64,000 nucleotides of DNA from positions 62,001 to 126,000 of the forward strand of contig NZ_CP013074.1 of assembly GCF_001889305.1 (NCBI RefSeq), in the 5' to 3' direction. The position numbers were made by a program, and so were the translations under genes. The stretch is from Dehalococcoides mccartyi. GTDB taxonomy: Bacteria; Chloroflexota; Dehalococcoidia; Dehalococcoidales; Dehalococcoidaceae. The notes beneath the pieces were generated by a model. It did no database searches and had not been told where the DNA came from. It worked only from the letters and a program-made list of their open reading frames with translations. Below, piece by piece: positions 9,047-16,612 of the stretch. Each line of letters opens with the position of its first letter. Position 1 is the first letter of the stretch.

Positions 9047-9712
9047 CTAAAGCGGTTTACGCGCCTGAATAATCTGGAACATGCCTAAAAGACGCTGGCG
9101 GCGGTTAAGGATTTCAAACCCGCCATCCTTTAGTTCACCGCTTAAGACCCCCGGCTGCATCATCTGGTAGGCCGGCAAGCCCTCAAATACACGGATAAAT
9201 ACCCTGATACCCAACCCACCGATACCCTGGGGAAGATTATAGTCCAGCACGTTGAAAACACCCCCCGGTTTGAGCACTTTATAAATCTGTTTAATTGCTT
9301 CACGGCGGATAGGGGTGGGCATTTCATGCAAACCGTAAGATACGAAAGCCTTATCGAAAGTACCCTCAAGGAATGGCAGATTGTCACCTGAGGCTTGACG
9401 GAAAACCACAGGCATGCCCGTTACTTTTTCTTTGGCTCTGGCCATCATATCCGGGGATAGATCAACACCTGTTACCTGACCGTCTTTTAATTTTCCGGCT
9501 ACCAGACGGGTAGTTGCACCTGTGCCGCAGCACATGTCTATGATATTGTCACCGGGTTGAATATTGGCCTCATCTACAAACTTGCGGCGAAAGCGTTCTT
9601 CGCCGCCGAAGGGTATAAAAAGTACACGTGTTAAAAAGTCGTAAACTTTAGAATAACGTTTCCAGTAATCTGTCTTGTAATAGGAGGGCGGGGTAACTTT
9701 GTCCTGCATCAT
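9047..9712 (-). CDS. SAM-dependent class I methyltransferase, UbiE-like
   Basis: The 221-residue protein has the SAM-binding motif I NIIDMCCGTG at residues 56-65, motif II VTGVDLSPDMM, and the post-I acidic and aromatic patterns of the UbiE/Coq5 group (motif FDKAFVSYGLHEM). The start overlaps the stop of the upstream PurM-like gene by four bases, so the two are coupled. No quinone biosynthesis genes are adjacent, so a quinone substrate should not be assumed. Confidence 0.8.
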   Translation of the reverse strand: MMQDKVTPPSYYKTDYWKRYSKVYDFLTRVLFIPFGGEERFRRKFVDEANIQPGDNIIDMCCGTGATTRLVAGKLKDGQVTGVDLSPDMMARAKEKVTGMPVVFRQASGDNLPFLEGTFDKAFVSYGLHEMPTPIRREAIKQIYKVLKPGGVFNVLDYNLPQGIGGLGIRVFIRVFEGLPAYQMMQPGVLSGELKDGGFEILNRRQRLLGMFQIIQARKPL

Positions 9713-10788
9713 TTTTTGCCTTCCAGTTCATTATACTTTTCCAGAGCATTATAAAAGGCCTTCCAGAACGGGTCAACCTGCGGATGAATAAGAGGCTTTA
9801 CCTGCCCGTTTTCAACCAGTTTCATACCGCTGCCTGAGGGTGTTATTTCACCGGCTACCGAGGCTTTGATACCCTTGGCAGACATAGCTGAAAGGATTTC
9901 TTCCGCCCGGTGGGCACGGCAGGTAAGCAGCAGAGTGCCTTCGCTTATGGAAGCATACGGGTCTATTCCAAACAGGGTGCAGATTTCCTTCACCCCGTCT
10001 TCAACCACAATCTTGTCTTTTTCTATGGTAACACCCAGGCCGGCGGCTTCGGCTATTTCATACAACCCCCCCCAGATACCGCACTCTGTGGCATCATGCA
10101 TGGCAGTTACCCCGTTATCCCGGACACCCACGGAGACAGCTGCCAGAGCATCTTCCACCACGCTCATTTTATAAAAAATACCCTGAGATTTCAGGCTGAA
10201 ATCAGCCCCGAATTTTTTGGACAGATAACCGGGGAACATGGCCGCAAAAATACCGCAAGCTTCTATAGCCGGCCCTTTGGTAATAATTATTTTGTCTCCG
10301 GGTTTTACAAATTCGGGGCCAACATACTGGTTTAGTTCACCTTCGCCGATTACAGTTGCCCCGCCAACGAAAGGGTAATTGCAGTTTTCATATCGGGCGG
10401 TATGCCCGGTTACTATAGATACACCATTTTGGGCACATTGGTCATGGATGACCTGCCAGACCAGACTCAGCTGGTCTTTGGTAATACCCATAGGCAAATT
10501 AAGGTCTATGGTAAGGTATTTGGGTTTTAAACCTGAGGTAACCGAATCTGAAAGGAGGATATGTATGGCAAACCAAGCCGCTCTCTCCCAGCCGTATTCG
10601 GGCACGATAAAGACCGGGTCTGTGGTCAGGGAAACAGCCTTGCCTCCCATATTGACTACAGCGGAATCAACCCCGCTCCTGGGACCTATAAGCACATCCT
10701 GTGAAGCCGCCCCAAGCCTGGGATATATAAGTTCCCTGAAGATGTCCGGCGATATTTTACCTATTTCAGGCATTTCAGGCATATTCAT
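9709..10788 (-). CDS. AIR synthase-related (PurM/HypE-superfamily) protein
   Basis: This is a 359-residue protein with the two-domain layout of the PurM superfamily (AIR synthases, HypE, selenophosphate synthase, thiamine phosphate kinase). The N-terminal domain has the SGVDSAVVNMGGK and TTDPVF patterns; the C-terminal domain has HDATECGIWGGLYEIAEAA, matching the superfamily's HDxTxGG motif. I choose the ATG at 10788 because AAAGGAG sits just upstream; the longer open frame to 10914 has no such site. It resembles HypE but there are no hyp genes nearby, and its coupling to a methyltransferase points to a modification pathway I cannot name. Confidence 0.75.
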   Translation of the reverse strand: MNMPEMPEIGKISPDIFRELIYPRLGAASQDVLIGPRSGVDSAVVNMGGKAVSLTTDPVFIVPEYGWERAAWFAIHILLSDSVTSGLKPKYLTIDLNLPMGITKDQLSLVWQVIHDQCAQNGVSIVTGHTARYENCNYPFVGGATVIGEGELNQYVGPEFVKPGDKIIITKGPAIEACGIFAAMFPGYLSKKFGADFSLKSQGIFYKMSVVEDALAAVSVGVRDNGVTAMHDATECGIWGGLYEIAEAAGLGVTIEKDKIVVEDGVKEICTLFGIDPYASISEGTLLLTCRAHRAEEILSAMSAKGIKASVAGEITPSGSGMKLVENGQVKPLIHPQVDPFWKAFYNALEKYNELEGKK

Positions 10789-11007
10789 TTGCTCCTTTAT
10801 GATACTGGTTACAGGGGATACAGATATCGGTAAATTATACCTGAAATATCTCCCGAGACCAATTCTGCCCGAAAGACATGAAAAACAGCCACATTTTAAT
10901 ACCCTGAAAACCAAATTTCCGGCAGGTTATTTTAGAAATATCCTTACCGGAAATAGGACACTGTTTTAATTAAAAGGGATACCTGAAATACTAGCTGCAG
11001 GGGATTT

Positions 11008-11454
11008 TTAAATGCTCAGCTCCAGAGGAACTTCAGGTGAACCGCTTTCTTTCCACTGCTGTACCAAATTCTCCAAATTGATAGAATCCAGAATTTCATC
11101 TGTGGCTTTTTTAATCTTCAGCCAAACATTGCGGGTAATACAACCTTCACCGCGCCAGCAAACTCTGGGGTCATCCACACACTCTGAAGGGGAGGTAGAG
11201 CCTTCGGTAGCTTTTACTATATCACTCAGTCTTATTTCTTTGGGATCTCTGGCCAGTACAAAACCGCCATTTGCCCCGCGGACACTTCTAACCAATCCAG
11301 CTATCCTCAAGGGAATAAAAAGCTGGGCCAGATACTGTTCGGATATTTTTCTCCGCTGGGCGACATCACGAATCAAAATAGGGCCTTCACCGTAATGAAC
11401 CGCCAGGTCAAACATGGCTTCCATGGAATGCCTGCCACGGGCTGACAACTTCAT
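11008..11454 (-). CDS. Rrf2 family transcriptional regulator, probable Fe-S sensor
   Basis: The 148-residue protein has the Rrf2 winged helix (residues 1-80: ARGRHSMEAMFDLA, SEQYLAQLFIPLRIAGLVRS, GANGGFVLAR). Three cysteines follow in the pattern C-x6-C-x5-C (ECVDDPRVCWRGEGC), close to IscR's cluster ligands, so a redox or Fe-S sensing role is likely. The ATG at 11454 is preceded by GGAGG at eight bases; an upstream in-frame TTG overlaps that site and is not used. It lies next to the ApbE/membrane flavoprotein block, which it may control. Confidence 0.88.
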   Translation of the reverse strand: MKLSARGRHSMEAMFDLAVHYGEGPILIRDVAQRRKISEQYLAQLFIPLRIAGLVRSVRGANGGFVLARDPKEIRLSDIVKATEGSTSPSECVDDPRVCWRGEGCITRNVWLKIKKATDEILDSINLENLVQQWKESGSPEVPLELSI

Positions 11455-11480
11455 TGCATTAGCCTCCAAAAACTAACCAC

Positions 11481-11652: not shown

Positions 11653-12687
11653 TCAGGTACCGAGATGTTCGCTAAGGACACGGTAACCGCTGGTTGTATA
11701 GCTCTTCAGGTCTTTATCTATCAGCAGAGCTTCTGCCCCGTCCAAACTTTCCAGCAGTTTAAGGGTCTCGTCTACCCCCATTACCATAGCAGCAGTAGCT
11801 AAAGCATCCGCCAGCAGGGTATCACGGGCAATGACCGTGGCACTGCACAATTGCTGCGGTGAAAAACCAGTGCGGGGATCAATGATGTGGTTATACTTGT
11901 AATCCGGAGTGAATGCATTTTCATAATCACCGGAAGTGGCCATGCAGGCATTTGAAGACTGGATAACATCATAGTAACCGGTATACGCTCTGGGGTGGGT
12001 GATACCCACTTTCCAAGGCTGGCCGTCTTCGCGCATGCCCTGAAGAGCCAAATCTCCGCCGGCTTCAACTATTATCTGGCTGACGCCGCGTCCGCGCAGA
12101 TAGGAGGTTGCCATATCTACAATGTAACCCTTGGCAATACCATCAAGAGTAATAGCCATACCGTTCCTGCCCAAGACTATATCTTTGCCCTTGATAGACA
12201 TTTCACGGTAATCAACCAGGTATTTTACTTCATCAAGCTGAGAAGAAGAGGGAGGCAGCTTGGTTTTAGCGAAGCTGTCCTGACAAAGGTCCAACGCAGG
12301 CAGTACTGTGGGATCAAATGCCCCGCCGCTAAGTTCGGCACAATACTGGGCACTGGAAAGGACCGAGACAAATTCGCTTGAAGCGCCTATAGCCTGACCG
12401 CTTTTGTTCAGGCGGTAAAGTTCTGAGGTAACATCAAAGCGGTTAAATACAGAAGACAACCGTTCAATTTCAGCAAAAGTATCGTTAACCTTGGCTTTGG
12501 CATTGTCCTGGCTACTGTCTATCAGAGTAATTGTGATATATGTACCCAAAAGAGCTTTGGTCTCAGAATACTGACATTCAGCCGCAGAGGTTATCAGCTC
12601 TTTAACACCCAAACCTCCGGCAGCCAAAACCCCAGCTCCCACGGCCGAAATCCTGATAAAATCTCTTCTGGTTAATTTATTCTTCAC
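11653..12687 (-). CDS. apbE: FAD:protein FMN transferase with Tat signal
   Basis: ApbE transfers FMN from FAD onto a Thr/Ser of exported flavoproteins. The 344-residue protein starts at a GTG (12687) preceded by GGAGG; upstream in-frame ATGs lack such a site. Its N-terminus has a twin-arginine signal (TRRDFIRIS at residues 6-14, then a hydrophobic AVGAGVLAAGG stretch). Family hallmarks LDGIAKGYIVD, HIIDPRTG and DALATAAMVMG are present. It lies 76 bases after the stop of a membrane flavoprotein gene carrying an SGAT flavinylation motif, its likely substrate, and near the tat operon that would export it. Confidence 0.94.
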   Translation of the reverse strand: MKNKLTRRDFIRISAVGAGVLAAGGLGVKELITSAAECQYSETKALLGTYITITLIDSSQDNAKAKVNDTFAEIERLSSVFNRFDVTSELYRLNKSGQAIGASSEFVSVLSSAQYCAELSGGAFDPTVLPALDLCQDSFAKTKLPPSSSQLDEVKYLVDYREMSIKGKDIVLGRNGMAITLDGIAKGYIVDMATSYLRGRGVSQIIVEAGGDLALQGMREDGQPWKVGITHPRAYTGYYDVIQSSNACMATSGDYENAFTPDYKYNHIIDPRTGFSPQQLCSATVIARDTLLADALATAAMVMGVDETLKLLESLDGAEALLIDKDLKSYTTSGYRVLSEHLGT

Positions 12688-12763
12688 GTTATTATCCTCC
12701 ACGGCACTAAACATCCAAAAAATCATGTCCGGTGCTGTAAAAACTTATGCTTTTTATTTTTAG

Positions 12764-13957
12764 CTATTTGCTGGAAAAATTCTTAACCAGCCCAATAGTG
12801 CTTTTCCGTATTTTAAGTATTATATCCATGGTAGCGCCTACAGGGCAGAGATAATGACACCAAAAGTCATGTATGAAGAGAGACACGCCCAGAGTAGCTA
12901 TAACCAGAAGCCACTGGTCCAGCGCACCCTTCAGACTAAAGATGGTATTCCATGGCTCAAATACTGCCATTTGAGGGGACTGGAAAACTAAAACCAACAC
13001 TACTATCAGCCAGAGAATGACATAGCGGGTGTTACGCATGGCAAGCTGAGTGCGGGTAATGGGACGGGTACGGCCGCCGCCGATAAAGTTAAGGCCTTCC
13101 TGGATGGCAGAGAATGGGCACATCCAGAAACACCACAGGTTTTTACCGAAAACGAGCGCAGCCCCGATAATACCGAACACCATAAGATAGAGAAGCATAT
13201 TGCTCTGCCAGCTGGGAGCAAAGCCGGTGGGGAAGACGATAAAATTCACCAGGCTTAACGGCACAGACAGCCAGATACCGAATACTGCCAGCCCTATCAG
13301 CAAACTCATATAACGCAGTACATGTACCTTGCGTAAAGCAGGCACCATCCGCAGGGCAAATACGGACACAATGCCGGCAATAAAGAATACCTCGGCCAGC
13401 CCGAAATTAATAGGTTCAGGGGGGACGGGGTAGGGGTTGCCAAGCTGTTCGGAGAGTATCAGACGGCCTTCGCGGACACCAGTATCAACACCGGTTGAGG
13501 AACGGGTAGCCCCGGAAACCGCGTTTATATCTTCATTAAGCTGTAAAGGATCCTGATAAGAACGTCCGATAAACTGGGAAAAATAATCATTGGCGGCAAG
13601 TCTGTTGTACCAGGCAGGGGTATCGTTGGTTTGGGGTACATCCATTGCCAAAATAACGCCTTCGTTGCTCCAGGCAACTACAACCGTCATAGGGCCAGCA
13701 TAACCCAAACCCTTGCCGGAAGTAACATAAGCAATCTGATTGCCGGCAGAATCAAGGGCGGCAAAGAGATAAAGATCATCTGATGCACGGTCAGCCAGTT
13801 TTTTAAAGCTGGAGGCTTCAGGGATAACTTTTGATAGATACTGCTCAACATCAGGCGAAGCAGAAACCTTGCCTATCACTCCGGCTATAACTACAGAGAT
13901 AATGGCAAATATTATAAGCGCTTTTTTACCGTGTAGTTTCCAGAAACTGCTCTGCAT
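12764..13957 (-). CDS. Membrane FMN-binding / CX3CP protein of the NosR/RdhC family
   Basis: This 397-residue protein has an N-terminal membrane anchor (12-29) and an outward-facing FMN-binding domain with the flavinylation motif S148-G-A-T151. Five more membrane helices follow, between which lie two CX3CP motifs (C276/C280-P and C367/C371-P). This is the RdhC/NosR/NirI layout without the C-terminal ferredoxin domain, so it is closest to RdhC. Such proteins are thought to pass electrons between the membrane and the outer face. apbE follows on the same strand and a paralogue lies upstream. No reductive dehalogenase gene is in the window, so it would be an orphan copy. Confidence 0.85.
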   Translation of the reverse strand: MQSSFWKLHGKKALIIFAIISVVIAGVIGKVSASPDVEQYLSKVIPEASSFKKLADRASDDLYLFAALDSAGNQIAYVTSGKGLGYAGPMTVVVAWSNEGVILAMDVPQTNDTPAWYNRLAANDYFSQFIGRSYQDPLQLNEDINAVSGATRSSTGVDTGVREGRLILSEQLGNPYPVPPEPINFGLAEVFFIAGIVSVFALRMVPALRKVHVLRYMSLLIGLAVFGIWLSVPLSLVNFIVFPTGFAPSWQSNMLLYLMVFGIIGAALVFGKNLWCFWMCPFSAIQEGLNFIGGGRTRPITRTQLAMRNTRYVILWLIVVLVLVFQSPQMAVFEPWNTIFSLKGALDQWLLVIATLGVSLFIHDFWCHYLCPVGATMDIILKIRKSTIGLVKNFSSK

Positions 13958-14029
13958 TTAATGACCGCCTCACTTTCTGAGACACCTTGCTACTCGTCCA
14001 TGTACCCCAGAAATGAATGTTTATTAACG

Positions 14030-14063
14030 ACTATTATCAGATAAATAATTCACTGATAATAGT
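14030..14063. promoter_or_regulatory. Inverted repeat upstream of the first membrane flavoprotein gene
   Basis: Perfect 11-base arms ACTATTATCAG (14030-14040) and CTGATAATAGT (14053-14063) are separated by 12 bases, about 75 bases upstream of the 13957 start. The spacing and symmetry suit a dimeric regulator or an RNA hairpin. Confidence 0.5.
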
Positions 14064-14233
14064 ACAACTAAATAGTAAGTTTATCACGCATATATTTTGT
14101 TGGCAAGCTCAGGCGGGTACCAGAGACTCCCGTTTAAACCTGAAAATTCAGTCTATCAGCCCTGACGCTTTTACAAATATGACTACCAGACTGAACAGCG
14201 CACAGAATGACACCATGACAGTCAGAAATATAT

Positions 14234-15433
14234 CTATCGCCTTGCTTTTTTCTTTAACAGGCTTTTCCATTTATTCCCCACCCATTTACGCACCTTGATT
14301 ATTATATCCAGTGAAGCCCCTACAGGGCAAAGATAATTGCACCAGAAATTGTAGAACAGCAGAGCACCTACCAATGTGGCTATCATGAGTATCCATTCCT
14401 GGAAATCCCCTTTCAGGCTGAAAAGTAAATTCCACGGCTCAAAACCTGATATATTTGGCGCTCTGAATATAAACACCAGCATCAATGCCAACCAAAGCAG
14501 CGAGTAGCGAACCCACTTAAAACGTTTCTGGGCATTGGCGGAAGGTGAGACACCTTCTCCGATAAAATGAAGACCTTCCTGAACAGCAGAGAAAGGGCAC
14601 ATCCAGTAACAGTAGTAATTTTTGCCGAAGAGAATAGCCAGCCCCAGTATCCCCCAAACTACAATATAAAAGATTATGAACTGCTCAAGGCTGGGGGCAT
14701 AACCTACCAGAAAACTGGAGATATTGTTCAGGCTAAGGGGTACTGAAAGCCAGATACCCACTATAAAGAAGCTGTAGGCAAGAGCCAGATAACGGGCATA
14801 TTTGGGGTTTTTAAACGGCCTGAAAGTGCGCACCCAGAAAACAAAGACCAGCCCCAAACATACCAGCAACTCCGGTAAACCGAATTTTATACCGGGCAGG
14901 GGGTCTTTATAGTCCGAACCCAGCTCTTTTACTATCAGAAGCCGCCCGGCCTTGACAGCCATGGCTACCCCGTTTGAAGAAACAGTAGACCCTGAAACAG
15001 CATCTATATCTTCGTGTATCTGGATAGGTTCTTCGTAACCGCGGCCTATATATTGTTCAAAAAAATGTCTGGCTTCAAGAACCCGCCACCAGGGAAGGTC
15101 CTCGTGCTGAACGGGAACTGATATCTGCTGGATAATACCGTCAAGACTCCAGTCAAGGGCAACCAGCAGAGGGCCGCCGTAACCCTGTCCCTGTGAAATA
15201 GTAACGTAGCTTTCCATCTGGCCTTCATCGTCCAGTATGCCGTAAAGCACACCCTGACTGGTAGCCATCAATTCGGTATATTCGGAATCTGCAGACACAA
15301 CCTGAGGAATGTATTCCTTGTAGCCTAAATCCTGGTGGGTAAAACCATACAAAGCGGCAAGCCCCAAGCTTAACAAAGCCAGCAATGTAACTATCCTGCT
15401 GCGATTTGAAATAACCCTATTGAAATATTTCAA
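14234..15433 (-). CDS. Membrane FMN-binding / CX3CP protein of the NosR/RdhC family (paralogue)
   Basis: This 399-residue paralogue of the adjacent 13957 gene has the same order: N-terminal anchor (14-31), outer FMN-binding domain with S147-G-S-T150 (SGST rather than SGAT), and five further helices with CX3CP motifs at C275/C279 and C365/C369. The start is a TTG with GAAGGG upstream. A 276-bp gap separates the two copies. The tatC gene ends 106 bases upstream on the same strand. ApbE at 12687 is the probable flavin donor. The A-to-S change in the flavinylation motif may alter modification. Confidence 0.84.
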   Translation of the reverse strand: MKYFNRVISNRSRIVTLLALLSLGLAALYGFTHQDLGYKEYIPQVVSADSEYTELMATSQGVLYGILDDEGQMESYVTISQGQGYGGPLLVALDWSLDGIIQQISVPVQHEDLPWWRVLEARHFFEQYIGRGYEEPIQIHEDIDAVSGSTVSSNGVAMAVKAGRLLIVKELGSDYKDPLPGIKFGLPELLVCLGLVFVFWVRTFRPFKNPKYARYLALAYSFFIVGIWLSVPLSLNNISSFLVGYAPSLEQFIIFYIVVWGILGLAILFGKNYYCYWMCPFSAVQEGLHFIGEGVSPSANAQKRFKWVRYSLLWLALMLVFIFRAPNISGFEPWNLLFSLKGDFQEWILMIATLVGALLFYNFWCNYLCPVGASLDIIIKVRKWVGNKWKSLLKKKARR

Positions 15434-15539: not shown

Positions 15540-16328
15540 TTACTTAGACTCGCTTACTTCCCTCTTCTTGCGGTAAACCAGTTTGGACAGCCAGATGGAT
15601 ATCTCATAAAGAACTATAAGCGGACCGGCCATAATAGTCTGATTTACAGGGTCAAAGGTAGGTGTAATGAGAGCGGCAATGACAAAAGCGATTACTACCC
15701 AGATTTTGCGTTTGGAGGCCAGCCACTGGGGAGATACTACGCCCAGTCTTGCCAGCACCATAATAATGAAGGGGGTCTCAAATATGAGTCCGAGCGCAAT
15801 AAGTATTCTGGTGACTACATTCATATAGTCTTTTATACCAACCACAGTGAGCACAACATCATCGCCCCAGTGCAACAGTATGTTTAAAGCAGGCGGCAAA
15901 GCCACATAGTAGGCGAAAGCCAAACCAGCCAGAAACATTACGGTTACAGCCGGTATGGCAATAAAAATAAACTTCTTTTCGTTGCGGTTTAGTGCCGGAG
16001 TAATAAAGGCAATCAGTTGATACAGTATGTAAGGGGAAGCAATAATGAAGCCTGCCCAGAGCGATACGTTAAAAAAGACCGAAGCATATTCCATAACACC
16101 CAGCTGGGCCGGTTTGAAATCAGGACCGCCGGGGGCAGTTAAAAAGCCTATTATGGGGGTAGCAAAGAAAAAGGCCACCATAACACCCATCACCAAAGCT
16201 ATTATGCCGCGAGTAAAACGCTGGCGAAGCTCGTTAAAATGCCCACCGATAGGCATTTTGCCCTTGGCTTTAGCTTCTTCCGGTGGTTCCTCTTCTTCTA
16301 CTTCAGGAGTCTCGTTTTTGCTGCTCAC
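15540..16328 (-). CDS. tatC: Sec-independent protein translocase TatC
   Basis: TatC is the membrane receptor for twin-arginine signals. The 262-residue protein has a charged acidic cytoplasmic N-terminus (about 25 residues, longer than usual), the conserved HFNELRQRF entry motif near residue 29 and six membrane helices. The conserved [17 protein letters not shown] loop lies near residues 185-200. It overlaps the tatB-like gene by four bases. In this lineage Tat exports the respiratory reductases and hydrogenases, so it is central to energy metabolism. Confidence 0.96.
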
Positions 16329-16612
16329 GCTTTACCACCGCTTCCGGGTCCGTTTAGAAAATTTTCAAGTGATTTGGATTTGCTGGTGGTACTGGTAGAA
16401 CTGCCGGTTTTCTTTTTACTGGGAGAAGCCAGATTTTCAGCATCTATAGCTCTGGTAAAATCTCTGGTCATTTCACCGGTTACCTTGCGGAACGAATTAA
16501 CGAACTGTCCGATTTGGCGGGCAAACTCAGGTATCTTGCCGGGCCCGAAAATAAGGGTGGCCACAATAAGCACGATAATAATTTCACCGAAGCCGATTCC
16601 CAGAAAATCCAT
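16325..16612 (-). CDS. tatB: TatA/TatB-family translocase subunit, TatB-like
   Basis: The 95-residue protein has one N-terminal membrane helix (residues 8-24) ending in the [14 protein letters not shown] amphipathic hinge, followed by a longer amphipathic helix than in the two neighbouring TatA proteins and a basic/serine-rich tail. Translational coupling to tatC and the glutamate in the membrane segment (GEIIIV) fit a TatB role. TatA and TatB are hard to separate by sequence alone, so the B assignment is tentative. Confidence 0.82.

Follow-up and report, generated by a model that had tools for sequence, protein, structure and literature searches.

A conserved RdhC cassette beside the Tat genes of Dehalococcoides mccartyi and a candidate module for its electron input

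Which protein passes electrons to the membrane flavoproteins of the RdhC family, and to what are they passed on? The question is raised by a locus in a 64,000-nucleotide stretch of Dehalococcoides mccartyi DNA (contig NZ_CP013074.1, positions 62,001 to 126,000; the whole stretch is called the window here, and positions are in its numbering), where two paralogous proteins, P1 and P2, are encoded beside genes of the twin-arginine translocation (Tat) system and a gene for an ApbE flavin transferase. The order on the minus strand is tatA, tatC, P1, a 40-residue open reading frame (ORF), P2, apbE and rrf2. The electron donor of RdhC has not been established so far, and we know of no route by which cytosolic electrons reach the reductive dehalogenase RdhA in Dehalococcoides. 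Read across its relatives, the locus offers a candidate for the donor, a subunit not noticed before and an enzyme dedicated to maturation, and the RdhC question becomes directly testable. We consider it somewhat better than an even chance that this organohalide respirer, which does without quinones, has its core RdhC cassette here, a wire fed by ferredoxin or NAD(P)H that would run from the cytosol to an outer flavin mononucleotide (FMN) and reduce or activate exported RdhA. By such a path, electrons from the cytosol could be delivered to dehalogenating enzymes beyond the membrane.

P1 and P2 as RdhC proteins and their flavin transferase

Both P1 (14234..15433, minus strand) and P2 (12764..13957, minus strand) match FMN_bind and Fer4_5 over the Pfam cut-offs. 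P1 has the FMN motif SGSTVS with T150 and CX3CP motifs at 275 and 365, and P2 the motif SGATRS with T151 and CX3CP motifs at 276 and 367. The Pfam and motif checks agree with an earlier note on this DNA, which had described two paralogues with an outer FMN domain (SGST or SGAT) and two CX3CP motifs each. The two proteins are about 41% identical, and P1 is 42% identical to the third RdhC copy of the genome. All 31 RdhC rows compared, P1 and P2 included, have two CX3CP motifs; in the P2 orthologues of genomes G003 and G006 an alanine replaces the S/T before the G of the FMN motif and the threonine is retained. Hydrophobicity and charge predict six hydrophobic segments with a positive-inside pattern, the N-terminus inside, the FMN domain outside and both CX3CP motifs on the inner face; Fer4_5 and FMN_bind are the sole Pfam domains. 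In the accessible text of Buttet et al. 2018 (PMC5928378), RdhC is defined by the FMN motif [S/T]G[A/S]TX[S/T], two CX3CP motifs, six membrane helices, an FMN domain outside, no C-terminal 4Fe-4S part and a genome with at least one rdhA. P1 and P2 agree with this definition in FMN motif, CX3CP motifs, predicted topology and the presence of rdhA in the genome.

Models of other families fell well short of their cut-offs. The full NosR model gave 35.7 and 52.9 bits for P1 and P2 (cut-off 1000), the NapH model TIGR02163 gave 37.1 and 42.7 bits (cut-off 213), and the RnfG models gave 27.5 bits for P1 (RnfG_DVU2794) and 32.6-40.8 bits for P2 (cut-offs 102-230). An AlphaFold model of P2 from 26 rows reached a mean confidence (pLDDT) of 83; an earlier one, with pLDDT 59, was not used for structure search. 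The FMN domain of the model matches RnfG with Z 15.7 and a root-mean-square deviation of 6.3 over 165 residues, the RnfG/NqrC fold range being Z 9-16, while among the matches listed no solved structure matched the membrane part. In the RdhC tree P2 forms its own clade (support 100/99) and the support for P1 is moderate (82/91); a tree holding the rdhA-linked RdhC copies together was not rejected (p-AU 0.21; 31 rows, without Firmicutes RdhC). The tree was built without two RdhC fragments of G009 (L077) and with only the last 400 residues of G002_rdhCb; alignment A6 excludes G002 P1 and G002_rdhCb as well as the rows of G008 and the fragment of G035.

The apbE gene (11653..12726, minus strand) starts 37 nt behind P2. 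Its product scores 256.9 bits with PF02424 (cut-off 25.6) and has the twin-arginine start KLTRRDFIR, as the earlier reading of an ApbE with a twin-arginine signal had it. Also as described before, tat genes precede the block: TatC (15540..16328, minus strand) is identified by PF00902 (194 bits) and by TIGR00945 over its cut-off, and before it lies a TatA/B-type subunit (16325..16612, minus strand; PF02416, 46.2 bits, over cut-off). The genome is a single contig of 1.52 Mb, and the window copy is its only ApbE. All 14 genomes carrying the cassette have one ApbE each, encoded within the cassette in 13 and at the edge of another contig in G059. The motif and the ApbE together suggest that P1 and P2 would carry covalent FMN.

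The window genome (G000) has 24 rdhA matches over the family cut-off and three FMN_bind proteins, the third of which is an RdhC encoded directly behind rdhA and rdhB in an rdhABC cluster. The window holds no rdhA, and the nearest lies ~31.6 kb from apbE (G000:C1:41164-42096); the statement that no dehalogenase is nearby thus holds for the window, with 24 rdhA genes elsewhere in the genome. Since the only three FMN_bind proteins of the genome are all RdhC, no G or C subunit of Rnf or Nqr was found, and the idea of an Rnf/Nqr remnant was rejected. Two rdhA copies ~20 kb apart (G000:C1:1462596-1463423 and 1482629-1483456) have identical scores, which suggests a recent duplication. An rdhABC cluster adjoins a gene for a PAS-type histidine kinase whose first part is repeated nearby in inverted orientation with a near-identical protein start (L089:10750-11028, plus strand; 12766-14046, minus strand). 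At L091:3224-4657 (G000:C1:943223-944656) a 477-residue NapH-like membrane protein is encoded, under the NapH cut-off and with no FMN_bind match in the genome search.

Conservation was followed in 61 relatives, 393 genomes of the class and 400 genomes of the phylum. Among the 61, P1- and P2-like proteins are present in all 11 members of the window's family, and cassette parts occur in three further metagenome-assembled genomes (MAGs; G022, G035 and G059). In the named-genome scan, alignment A2 as query returned three loci and P2 as lone query returned no match. In each of the 12 genomes whose stretch includes this region, tatC lies directly next to the gene of an RdhC paralogue, P1 in nine and P2 in G009, G010 and G022. 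In five of the eight genomes of the sister genus g2, which belongs to the same family, rdhA genes lie between P1 and P2, and rdhA is present in 13 of the 14 genomes carrying the cassette. The comparison of gene neighbourhoods, which the earlier note had proposed, thus bears out a conserved unit with its sole ApbE and a constant tatC-rdhC adjacency, but the rdhA genes inside the cassette in g2 speak against calling the conduit self-contained. Nor is the supposition supported that P1 and P2 lack an obvious partner among known reductases, given their agreement with the RdhC definition, the many rdhA genes, the rdhABC cluster and the g2 arrangement. No RdhC-like protein was found outside the window's family in the phylum sample at E 1e-40; in a plasmid search DNA matches were absent, and the protein matches were either weak or of the NosR type.

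A helix free behind P1 and fused to a flavoprotein behind P2

The earlier note had missed a conserved ORF for 40 residues (14148..14270, minus strand) that begins inside the P1 gene, 37 nt from its end. It encodes a one-helix protein, and equivalent ATG-started one-helix ORFs overlap P1 in 12 of 12 loci (11 family genomes and G035). In a mechanical count of 271 ORFs of at least 150 residues from 20 stretches, an ATG-started overlapping one-helix ORF stood behind 12 RdhC genes (11 P1 and one rdhA-linked) and a comparable one behind 4 of the other 259 ORFs, which include the P2 genes. Over the 27 non-overlapping codons, the differences by codon position in three congeners are 1/2/11, 9/0/13 and 10/2/13, as expected of a coding frame. 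At E 1e-8 or better, the profile of the free tail matched among the 61 genomes only the 11 family members, G035 and G059. Four of the five rdhA-linked rdhC genes (G000, G001, G002a and G003) are likewise overlapped by a small helix ORF.

Behind P2 the relatives hold a different gene. In all 11 genomes outside the window's genus (eight of g2, G022, G035 and, truncated, G059) it directly follows P2 and encodes a protein of ~600 residues with a 4Fe-4S domain, GltD/NfnA-type FAD and nucleotide domains, a second 4Fe-4S domain and a C-terminal membrane helix. The orthologue of the window genome stands alone at G000:C1:215223-217025, outside the window, and the gene is unlinked yet kept in three of three same-genus genomes. 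In the class sample the tailed form scores at least 905 bits in 12 genomes, the next score being 668, and these 12 are exactly the genomes with full-length RdhC, by profiles that contain members of these same genomes.

When 12 of the microproteins were aligned by hhalign with 13 C-termini of the GltD-like proteins, the probability was 92.4, the E-value 5.1e-7 and the score 31.2. The controls stayed lower: 20 windows taken from the RdhC alignment, its membrane helices among them, scored at most 16.5, 200 column shuffles keeping the helix columns together at most 19.4, the reversed profile 10.8 and TatA 9.7. A profile made from the flavoprotein tails only matched two microproteins (G004 at 2.8e-5 and G008 at 2.9e-4) in ~20,800 frames. 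By these profile comparisons the stand-alone helix behind P1 and the one fused to the flavoprotein encoded behind P2 are homologous, and gene-fusion logic points to a docking helix for RdhC.

The tailed protein scores under every NCBIfam cut-off shown, and its relatives of solved structure are NfnA, SudA-type and formate-dehydrogenase-fused chains. The YRR motif of such proteins binds the phosphate of NADPH. It is present in the four solved relatives shown and in 6 of 10 untailed homologues of the class, and absent from all 13 tailed proteins, so that by this motif the tailed protein does not qualify as an NADPH-dependent GltD/NfnA enzyme. The loss of the arginine pair, with the added N-terminal 4Fe-4S domain kept, would make reduced ferredoxin the likelier donor. 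An untailed GltD-like protein is encoded at L090:8347-9732 in what appears by eye to be a membrane hydrogenase operon with NuoEFG-like genes. The donor that the earlier note had asked for is likely the membrane-tailed GltD-like Fe-S flavoprotein, encoded outside the window.

Proposed electron path and competing explanations

At the level of sequence, the parts, their motifs, the synteny, the helix homology and the sole ApbE are established as described, and from them we infer docking, direction, donor and acceptor in the following way. ApbE, exported by its twin-arginine signal, would load P1, P2 and the rdhA-linked RdhC with FMN at their outer domains. Cytosolic electrons, more likely from ferredoxin, would enter the tailed GltD/NfnA-like flavoprotein, which would serve as the cytosolic input for P2 and dock by its C-terminal membrane helix; for P1, and probably also for the rdhA-linked RdhC copies, the same helix would act as a separate small subunit. 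RdhC would then take electrons at the cytoplasmic face, the predicted side of the CX3CP motifs, and hand them to the outer FMN, which in PceC is exocytoplasmic and covalent (PMC5928378). The likeliest acceptor would be Tat-exported RdhA, reduced or kept reducible, with RdhC acting as a sub-stoichiometric activator. Such a helper role fits the abundance of PceC, which is ~50-fold below PceA, seems absent from the complex and is conceivably a helper (PMC8905343), and the report that NosX is needed in vivo and not for assembly of the copper centre of N2O reductase (PMC7660919). A wider proposal, which we put forward tentatively and hold to be the less probable, is that RdhC, fed from the cytosol, activates exported RdhA by reduction and that in this order the 40-residue helix generally serves as its small subunit, either on its own or joined to a ferredoxin-type GltD, forming a swappable module for electron input. 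If true, it would give quinone- and cytochrome-free bacteria of the Dehalococcoides type their first named electron path from the cytosol to the outer face.

Several observations weigh against the proposed path. The tailed gene lies ~140 kb from the cassette in the window's genus, and the co-occurrence counts are clumped by ancestry, 11 of the 12 genomes being one family. Of the 393 genomes in the class sample, 45 carry rdhA over the cut-off, 11 of them with RdhC and 34 without, so not every rdhA requires RdhC. G035 (DAOUZU010000045.1; L073/L093), a MAG that is 87% complete, has the full cassette and no rdhA at E 0.001. As for the tail, its DNA identity is no higher than that of the adjacent intergenic stretch, two of the four rdhA-linked tails are weak by sequence and placed more by position, no tail ORF was seen at the rdhA-linked RdhC G002b, and the contact between helix and RdhC is a predicted one. 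Finally, a term search of the accessible text of the D. mccartyi complexome paper (PMC6005880) gave no match for RdhC, FMN or glutamate synthase.

The alternative that survives best, though unlikely, is the view of the earlier note that the acceptor served by the cassette is not RdhA, the likeness to RdhC reflecting shared ancestry only. The separate clade of P2, the distance of more than 31 kb to the nearest rdhA in the window genome and the G035 cassette are in its favour. Against these stand the 13 of 14 cassette genomes with rdhA and the rdhA genes inside the cassette in most g2 genomes, and the stretches examined showed no further exported reductase in linkage with the cassette. The G035 cassette itself may reflect either missing contigs or a use outside organohalide respiration.

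We hold it to be quite improbable that P1 and P2 connect RdhA to respiration as the main, stoichiometric link, forming the electron route for growth instead of a helper. The orientation and outer FMN of RdhC would suit electron delivery (PMC5928378), and in a lineage without quinones (PMC10772276) a protein link would be needed. However, the accessible text of PMC10772276 describes the organohalide respiration complex of Dehalococcoides as quinone-free and periplasm-facing and thought to work without trans-membrane electron flow; the scarcity of PceC and its apparent absence from the complex (PMC8905343) and the restriction of RdhC to some rdhA-bearing genomes also tell against such a link. 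An inward wire seems no less doubtful, by which periplasmic electrons, from H2 or another source, would enter at the FMN and pass to the cytosolic flavoprotein to give reduced carriers for biosynthesis. Sequence fixes no direction, and the tailed flavoprotein resembles NfnA/GltD, a type of enzyme that equilibrates cytosolic carriers, but the close link to Tat export and rdhA and the association of the RdhC family with dehalogenases (PMC5928378, as far as accessible) point outwards. That P1 and P2 are relics or NosR-like regulators left from rdh clusters, without redox function, is very improbable: RdhC was originally named a regulator, as far as the accessible sources go, but redox motifs, ApbE and tail are conserved across two genera and, where visible, in the further MAGs.

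Flanking genes and known systems

Behind apbE lies the gene of an Rrf2-family regulator (11008..11469, minus strand; 122.7 bits), which had been described as flanking the block and having three cysteines. The protein and its three cysteines are real, but the gene was matched next to apbE only in three same-genus genomes, and in the congener G002 it is split into two overlapping frames (L063:5577-6039); it was rejected as a part of the conserved cassette and is taken as a neighbour. Behind rrf2, an overlapping pair at 9047-10914 encodes a UbiE-like methyltransferase and a HypE/ThiL-like AIRS protein, both far under the NCBIfam equivalog cut-offs and kept in three same-genus genomes.

The RdhC family, its FMN and the tat-apbE link in Dehalobacter restrictus are already known. 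PceC, an RdhC, is flavinylated and was of unknown function as of 2023 (PMC10624902), and 12 RdhC clusters are given for Dehalococcoides and 9 for Dehalogenimonas in the accessible text of PMC5928378. The tail protein, the tailed GltD-like partner, the homology of the tails and the conserved cassette were not found in the part of the literature available as open-licence full texts without supplements.

Compared with known systems, the P2 model shares the fold of its FMN domain with RnfG/NqrC. NosR with NosX/ApbE in N2O reduction likewise combines an outer FMN domain, a membrane CX3CP module and a dedicated ApbE, but P1 and P2 are without its C-terminal 4Fe-4S part (36-53 bits against a cut-off of 1000). 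Over the FAD/NAD region, NfnA and SudA-type chains match the tailed protein, which differs from Fe-S flavoproteins of the NfnA/GltD type in its extra N- and C-terminal 4Fe-4S domains, its C-terminal membrane helix and the loss of YRR in 13 of 13. With the RdhC/PceC family (PMC5928378) P1 and P2 share the FMN motif, the two CX3CP motifs, the six predicted helices and a genome with rdhA; in the window they stand outside an rdh operon, with tat and apbE instead, and are accompanied by a free or GltD-fused tail helix that the accessible text does not describe. The closest parallel in gene order is Dehalobacter restrictus, which belongs to another phylum and for which the same text mentions no GltD-like or tail partner: in that organohalide respirer, too, ApbE is encoded in the Tat operon and is read as dedicated to RdhC (PMC5928378).

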